This document shows positions 40,639-40,932 of a stretch of DNA of 64,000 nucleotides, in pieces (positions within the stretch are counted from its first letter, which is position 1; every line of letters begins with the position of its first letter). Below the pieces are notes generated by a model. The model had not been told where the DNA came from, did not search any database, and worked only from the letters and a program-made list of their open reading frames with translations. This DNA is from Bacteroidota bacterium (GTDB lineage Bacteria; Bacteroidota; Bacteroidia; Chitinophagales; Chitinophagaceae). Where the stretch lies: the NCBI GenBank assembly GCA_029555415.1, contig JAKPSI010000018.1, positions 186,001-250,000 of the forward strand, written 5' to 3'. The translations under genes and the position numbers were made by a program.

Positions 40639-40714
40639 TGACCTCGGAGAGACTCGAACTCTCGGCCCTCCCGACGTAAGTGTCGGGATGCTCTAACAAC
40701 TGAGCTACGAAGTT
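40639..40714 (-). tRNA. tRNA-Lys-like gene with replaced anticodon arm (doubtful tRNA)
   Basis: The 3' 30 nt and the D-arm are nearly identical to the tRNA-Lys at 40784. The acceptor is AACTTCG/CGAGGTC, so the first pair is A-C, and the D-arm is AGCTCAGTTGTTAGAGC. In place of the 17-nt anticodon arm there are 20 nt: TCCCGAC, ACTTAC, GTCGGGA, a perfect 7-bp stem with a 6-nt loop, or alternatively a 5-bp stem with a 10-nt loop. No normal anticodon can be placed; an 8-nt loop would present TAC (Val). It may be a decayed duplicate, or an altered tRNA. Confidence 0.55.
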
Positions 40715-40726
40715 CCCCAAATAAAA

Positions 40727-40777
40727 AGTCGTTAGCCATGCACTGACTAACGACTAATGTCTACAGACTACCGACTG
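40727..40777. repeat. Heptad array between the tRNA-like gene and tRNA-Lys
   Basis: AGTCGTT is followed in 7-bp frame by units carrying GAC (TAACGAC, TACAGAC and others). The right end, with the following 52 bp of tRNA, is nearly identical to 40616-40671, showing that the tRNA and its repeat were duplicated together. Confidence 0.7.
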
Positions 40778-40783
40778 TTTCTG

Positions 40784-40856
40784 TGACCTCGGAGAGACTC
40801 GAACTCTCGGCCCGCTGATTAAGAGTCAGCTGCTCTACCAACTGAGCTACGAAGTC
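40784..40856 (-). tRNA. tRNA-Lys (anticodon CTT)
   Basis: This is a complete 73-nt cloverleaf. The acceptor is GACTTCG/CGAGGTC with one G-U, the D-arm AGCTCAGTTGGTAGAGC, the anticodon stem GCTGA/TCAGC with loop CTCTTAA giving anticodon CTT, the variable loop GGGCC-type, and the T-arm GAGAG TTCGAGT CTCTC. The discriminator is A, and CCA is not encoded. It lies between two tRNA-like relatives on the same strand. Confidence 0.93.
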
Positions 40857-40867
40857 AAAAATTTAAA

Positions 40868-40932
40868 AGAGACCCGAACTCCCGGCCCTCCCGACGAAGC
40901 CTTCGGGATGCGCTACACTGAGCTACGAAGTC
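40868..40932 (-). pseudogene. tRNA-Lys-derived pseudogene with palindromic anticodon arm
   Basis: The 5' acceptor GACTTCG and AGCTCAG match tRNA-Lys, but the D-loop is shortened (TGTAGCGC) and the 3' acceptor half is missing after the T-arm (GGGAGTTCGGGTCTC). The anticodon arm is TCCCGAAGG, CTTCG, TCGGGA, again a TCCCGA palindrome of 20 nt as in the copy at 40639. It cannot form a working tRNA. Confidence 0.6.

Follow-up and report, generated by a model that had tools for sequence, protein, structure and literature searches.

tRNA-Lys copies with palindromic anticodon arms as a probable nuclease-less form of a GIY-YIG element nested in Bacteroidota tRNA genes

A set of three tRNA-Lys-type units in a Bacteroidota genome is probably the nuclease-less form of a mobile, homing-like GIY-YIG element that lives inside the tRNA genes of this phylum. 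The units lie in the window, the 64,000-nucleotide stretch of DNA that was analyzed (C22:186001-250000), which comes from a 3.97-Mb genome of 139 contigs that is 98% complete. A complete element retains one intact tRNA and carries a GIY-YIG gene of 80–120 amino acids between this tRNA and a redundant partial copy. The order intact tRNA, terminator, nuclease ORF, palindrome and 3′ part is the usual layout, and the order 5′ part, palindrome, ORF and intact tRNA is an occasional one. Nearly all of the redundant copies observed have one arm rewritten as the palindrome of the nuclease lineage. At the level of sequence comparison, the data establish the architecture of the element, its recurrence, its occupied and empty alleles, its isotype-specific lineages and the link between nuclease and palindrome.

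The initial annotation described three tRNA-Lys-type units with a normal CTT anticodon in the middle one alone, and the sequence and the coordinates agree with this description. The units are on the minus strand, in the 5′ to 3′ order of a 5′ partial copy (40932–40868), an intact tRNA-Lys(CTT) (40856–40784) and a near-full copy (40714–40639). The intact gene is the functional survivor, is called by ARAGORN (40783–40856) and scores 71.4 bits against Rfam RF00005, where the tRNA gathering score is 29 bits. The downstream copy, or right-hand remnant, scores 46.3 bits and is reported by ARAGORN (40638–40714, minus strand) as 'tRNA-???' with a 4-nt anticodon. Its anticodon arm has become TCCCGAC-ACTTAC-GTCGGGA, with the hairpin palindrome TCCCGACGTAAGTGTCGGGA located by palindrome search at 40669–40688, and it is identical to the intact tRNA-Lys at 21/22 positions on the 5′ side and 22/22 on the 3′ side. 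The upstream copy, or left-hand remnant, has the anticodon arm TCCCGA-AGGCTTCG-TCGGGA (hairpin palindrome TCCCGACGAAGCCTTCGGGA, 40889–40908, from the same search) and was below detection in both ARAGORN and Rfam. TCCCGA...TCGGGA sits exactly at the position of the 17-nt anticodon arm in both copies, as proposed for the outer two units. The left-hand unit is not a whole tRNA; it ends within the T arm and is a 5′ partial copy that, in the direction of transcription, precedes the intact gene. A heptad-rich, terminator-like trailer of the AGTCGTTAGTC type follows the intact tRNA (40715–40782, minus strand; direct repeat D1, inverted repeats I1–I5), and a second copy of the trailer follows the right-hand remnant (40561–40638, minus strand; direct repeat D1). 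The claim that the right-hand unit and its heptads duplicate the middle unit was borne out by 87% identity over 87 nt.

Two TCCCGA-type hairpins are present in the 64-kb window, both at the tRNA-Lys locus, against a chance expectation of 0.10, which rules out a chance origin. Rfam at the gathering score gives tRNA alone within the window, which eliminates a group I intron in the tRNA anticodon. An att remnant of a tRNA-integrated island is ruled out at the window because both remnants are ≤70 nt from the intact tRNA-Lys. The presence of both remnants and the intact tRNA, coupled with the absence of a GIY-YIG nuclease ORF from the locus, makes a non-autonomous or decayed version of the element the best reading of this site. 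Synteny analysis identified eleven relative loci that match a neighboring coding gene and lack a Lys-CTT anticodon arm within 1.5 kb, so they do not supply an empty site for the window locus. A 119-amino acid ORF elsewhere in the window (44222–44473, minus strand) has a weak GIY-YIG match (25.7 bits), is not beside a tRNA and is missed by the model of the tRNA-associated nuclease clade.

The right-hand remnant had been proposed to be a tRNA with a 6–10-nt anticodon loop. The measured loop is 6 nt on a 7-bp stem, the first base pair is broken and the D-loop GG is changed to GT. Judged by the loss of the 1-72 pair and the D-loop GG and by the 7-bp anticodon stem, decoding by this copy is unlikely. 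The same features rule out a working suppressor or frameshift tRNA.

The initial annotation had named the absence of the palindrome elsewhere in the genome, together with a lack of RNA from the right-hand copy, as evidence against its proposal. The palindrome is not absent elsewhere: the genome contains 11 copies of the TCCCGA palindrome, compared with one for a reversed-pattern control, and four of the 11 fall within tRNA copies, spread over three loci. Two are at Lys, one is in a copy upstream of the intact tRNA-Ala(GGC) on C91 and one is in a copy downstream of the intact tRNA-Arg(TCT) on C122. The surroundings of all 36 intact tRNAs were surveyed for partial copies within 900 nt, which yielded six copies at five loci (two at Lys and one each at Ala, Arg, Leu-GAG and Leu-CAA). 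An arm palindrome is present in 6/6 of these local partial copies versus 0/36 intact tRNAs. CCTGCCTGCCGGCAGGCAGG is found within the D loop of the Leu-GAG copy and close to the anticodon loop of the Leu-CAA copy, and a perfect palindrome of 38 nt spans the T arm of the Arg copy; the D, anticodon and T arms all occur as palindrome sites. The Arg remnant (L011/L204, G000:C122:914-990) has two palindromes, and the left T-stem strand at the second reproduces the right strand exactly in inverted orientation, suggesting that the left strand was rewritten in a templated inversion step. The full form of the element in this genome is found at tRNA-Leu(CAA) on C48 with a 78-amino acid GIY-YIG ORF (PF01541, 60.6 bits).

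A CTGCC-type palindrome occurs in 15 copies in the 3.97-Mb genome versus 0 for the control. Most palindromes are outside tRNA copies (12/15 of the CTGCC type and 7/11 of the TCCCGA type), and 7 of the 26 palindromes of both types fall within ~450 nt of remnants, where ~0.003 are expected by length. One of the 15 CTGCC-type copies, the perfect 20-nt palindrome CCTGCCTGCCGGCAGGCAGG at 14077–14096 of the window, occupies the loop of an inverted repeat that is terminator-like and built from heptads, and several of the 15 are in or beside inverted repeats. A 3′ part of tRNA-Asn on C23 (L166, G000:C23, about 82.3–82.7 kb) runs from the anticodon loop onward without a palindrome; it directly precedes a GIY-YIG ORF, and the intact tRNA-Asn is about 23 kb away. 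This arrangement resembles the distal end of a tRNA-integrated island.

The motif in tRNA context was found in 41 of 149 genomes in the family and in 37 of 395 genomes (30 of 171 genera) in the phylum Bacteroidota. The control for these counts was the reversed pattern within Bacteroidota, which gave one or no hits in these surveys and 0 in that of the phylum. Among the fetched loci, 128 distinct hairpin units adjoin an intact tRNA of matching body, and their isotypes include Lys, Ala, Arg, Val, Met, Thr and others. The 5′ partial copies are positioned upstream of the intact tRNA and the 3′ partial copies downstream, both partial copies are present at 18 loci as they are in the window, and tandem arrays reach eight copies. 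The proposal that the palindrome targets or was swapped into the anticodon hairpin is upheld by this recurrence at different tRNA genes. The native anticodon of the neighboring tRNA is found in the hairpin loop at 25 of 79 independent loci, compared with 7.2 ± 2.3 in shuffles, and none of 2000 shuffles reached this count. Of the 128 units, 117 have a complementary seventh stem pair and 2 have a T-G wobble there. Retention of the native anticodon together with the complementary seventh pair indicates that the stem is replaced and the loop is often kept. The anticodon count argues against the earlier picture of the palindrome as an independent block with its own center.

Many loci have a small ORF between the intact and broken tRNA copies that Pfam identifies as GIY-YIG, with PF01541 scores of 47–63 bits. 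A sample independent of TCCCGA was assembled from the small GIY-YIG ORFs of 61 genomes (n = 80) to avoid motif-search bias. A tRNA sequence lies ≤230 nt away from 50 of the 80 ORFs and is present on both sides in 40. Phylogenetic analysis of 108 proteins places the tRNA-associated nucleases in one clade (support 100/99) that is separate from 24 others. Isotypes cluster inside this clade (31 changes vs 72 shuffled), and the elements of a single genome are spread across isotype lineages. Such isotype-clustered lineages could also come from vertical descent. The catalytic residues Tyr16, Gly18, Arg26, His30 and Glu62 are invariant over 45 members, and pN/pS is 0.16–0.31 in the closest nuclease pairs. 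These substitution patterns show a nuclease under purifying selection with its catalytic residues intact. The structure model of the nuclease has a pLDDT of 95.6. Its nearest solved relatives by sequence are 1zg2 (UPF0213; E = 1e-13) and SLX1 (7cq2; 2e-8), with I-TevI reaching only 3e-3, and fold comparison ranks 1zg2, SLX1 and I-TevI in the same order. Four tandem GIY-YIG ORFs follow a tRNA-Asp in the single-contig genome G055 (L184/L291, G055:C1:637500-641500), and the inter-ORF remnants there are strongly altered.

One genus shows occupied and empty alleles at its Ser-Pro-Arg(TCT) tRNA cluster. The cluster carries a single element at L361, three in tandem at L018 (Chryseobacterium) and a decayed element at L363, where an in-frame stop interrupts the ORF and the hairpin has also decayed, and it is empty in four genomes (L362, L364–L366). 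The 3′ tRNA part and the terminator are repeated on either side of the ORF in this element. Empty and occupied Arg alleles match up to the terminator only, and the flanks beyond it differ.

Palindromes fall into families (TCCCG.., CCTGCC.., TCCGCC.., CCCCG.. and others), and their distribution on the nuclease tree requires 6 changes (minimum 5) versus 19.9 when shuffled within isotype (0/300), with classes assigned by eye and several remnants having more than one palindrome. An automated test of 48 members gave a smaller effect in the same comparison (24 vs 27.9 changes, 0/300; cross-isotype pairs, 0/500). Among Met elements, the nuclease clade separates those of the TCCCG type from those of the TCCGCC type, and the palindrome is of the CCTGCC type for one Arg-TCT nuclease located inside the Leu/Glu clade. 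The largest lineage carries TCCCG(A)...(T)CGGGA in the anticodon stem, a uniformity that is partly ascertainment because this lineage was found via the TCCCGA search. These tree comparisons show that palindrome type follows nuclease lineage even within an isotype, and this association with the nucleases of complete versions also disfavors block insertion. A T-loop motif, GACCGNAGCGTC (GGCCGGAGCGCC in L298), is shared by L298, L299 and L305, whose nucleases belong to a single clade and are found at Lys, Leu and Val tRNAs; this motif is a further palindrome type.

We infer the mobility of the element and the exact role of its palindrome from these patterns. A homing-like cycle is the most likely mechanism: the nuclease would cut the tRNA gene or the palindrome/cruciform, and repair between the direct tRNA repeats would allow the unit to spread to empty alleles and to amplify in tandem. 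The palindrome could be the cognate nuclease site or its cut-resistant version, and it may also disarm the redundant tRNA copy. The perfect palindromes that lack a loop favor symmetry at the DNA level over a role in RNA. Points against a homing element are the lack of a nuclease ORF at the window locus itself, the palindromes outside tRNA copies, which a strictly element-bound end does not predict, and the C23 GIY-YIG ORF behind a tRNA-Asn 3′ part that has no palindrome. A broader proposal is offered tentatively, as a possibility well short of probable: the elements would be a new minimal mobile-element class in which an SLX1-like GIY-YIG nuclease recognizes or makes its own palindrome by rewriting tRNA stem arms around a kept loop and duplicates the tRNA so that one copy works. 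The dispersed intergenic palindromes of Bacteroidota would then be mobilized in trans by the same nucleases.

The palindromes could also be read as independent mobile units of the RPE/REP kind that prefer DNA hairpins and, among tRNA genes, persist only where the copy was redundant beforehand, with the nuclease as a bystander that also favors tRNA genes. The frequent location of the same palindromes in or beside terminator-like inverted repeats fits this explanation, as do the seven palindromes within tRNA remnants and the use of all three arms as targets. We consider it rather unlikely because a simple block insertion does not place the native anticodon in the loop at the observed frequency and because the palindrome type follows the nuclease clade within isotypes. 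A function at the RNA level would have the hairpins transcribed as anticodon-nuclease decoys or as regulatory or 3′-end structures, with the recoded stem displaying the anticodon and avoiding mispairing with the real tRNA. The anticodon often kept in the loop is consistent with such RNAs, and folding predicts a cloverleaf with a strong hairpin for the downstream window copy (z −2.7). The upstream copy folds no better than shuffled sequences, T-G wobbles are rare among the seventh pairs, and many palindromes are loop-less (TCCGCCGCGGCGGA, CCTGCCTGCCGGCAGGCAGG) or located in D or T arms, where DNA symmetry fits better; this function is accordingly a doubtful candidate, and we rate it below the independent palindromes.

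Ordinary tRNA pseudogenes, formed as tandem duplicates by recombination and then decaying, would account for copies that are in tandem, have duplicated leaders or trailers and are often truncated. Decay does not yield the same stem at different tRNAs with exact arm borders and a complementary seventh pair, nor does it explain the linkage to a nuclease clade, which leaves this origin very improbable. A sequencing or assembly artifact of a metagenome bin might be suspected in a genome of 139 contigs. It is barely credible given that the structures are also found in isolates, including a complete chromosome (L018 Chryseobacterium, L109 Marivirga), and in the single-contig G055. A phage origin received little support from IMG/VR, which returned only about three tRNA-like cases (L338, L344 and L345) among 24 loci. 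The mobile GIY-YIG element nested in tRNA genes remains the reading that we favor.

If this reading is correct, a very small mobile element with only one gene is present in tRNA genes throughout a major bacterial phylum and has escaped notice because annotation divides it among odd tRNAs, pseudo-tRNAs and stray GIY-YIG proteins. Annotators of these genomes should then expect some tRNA predictions with unusual anticodons to be element debris. The element would be a cellular counterpart of phage SegB and a candidate source of unexplained Bacteroidota palindromes, and the co-evolution of a nuclease with palindromic DNA would become testable. A search of open-access literature found no description of such elements.

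The free-standing GIY-YIG homing endonuclease SegB of T-even phages is encoded beside tRNA genes (PMC13096335, PMC2988022). Cleavage by SegB in tRNA-containing DNA and recombination between short repeats lead to tandem amplification, and no isotype preference is reported in that paper (PMC13096335). The Bacteroidota loci resemble this system in having a small GIY-YIG gene adjoining tRNA genes and in forming tandem arrays. They differ from SegB in being chromosomal, in numbering one to several per genome, in having an ORF flanked by partial tRNA copies, in the nuclease-specific palindromes that overwrite tRNA arms and in lineages that are linked to isotype. The single-domain GIY-YIG nucleases of the UPF0213/SLX1 type are nearest to the element nuclease by both sequence and fold; to our knowledge these proteins are not mobile, and SLX1 together with SLX4 cuts branched DNA. 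Endonuclease ORFs of fungal mitochondria (Allomyces atp6 type) carry a partial copy of the gene that they invade, and the likeness is that the insertion interrupts the gene and provides a replacement for one portion, with the displaced portion remaining behind the ORF. The Allomyces type differs in its protein-coding targets and mitochondrial location, and we know of no nuclease-linked palindrome in its displaced part. Rickettsia palindromic elements and REP/RAYT units are short dispersed palindromes. The Bacteroidota palindrome, unlike these, is linked to a GIY-YIG lineage, often leaves the host loop in place and occurs in redundant tRNA copies rather than in intact ones.
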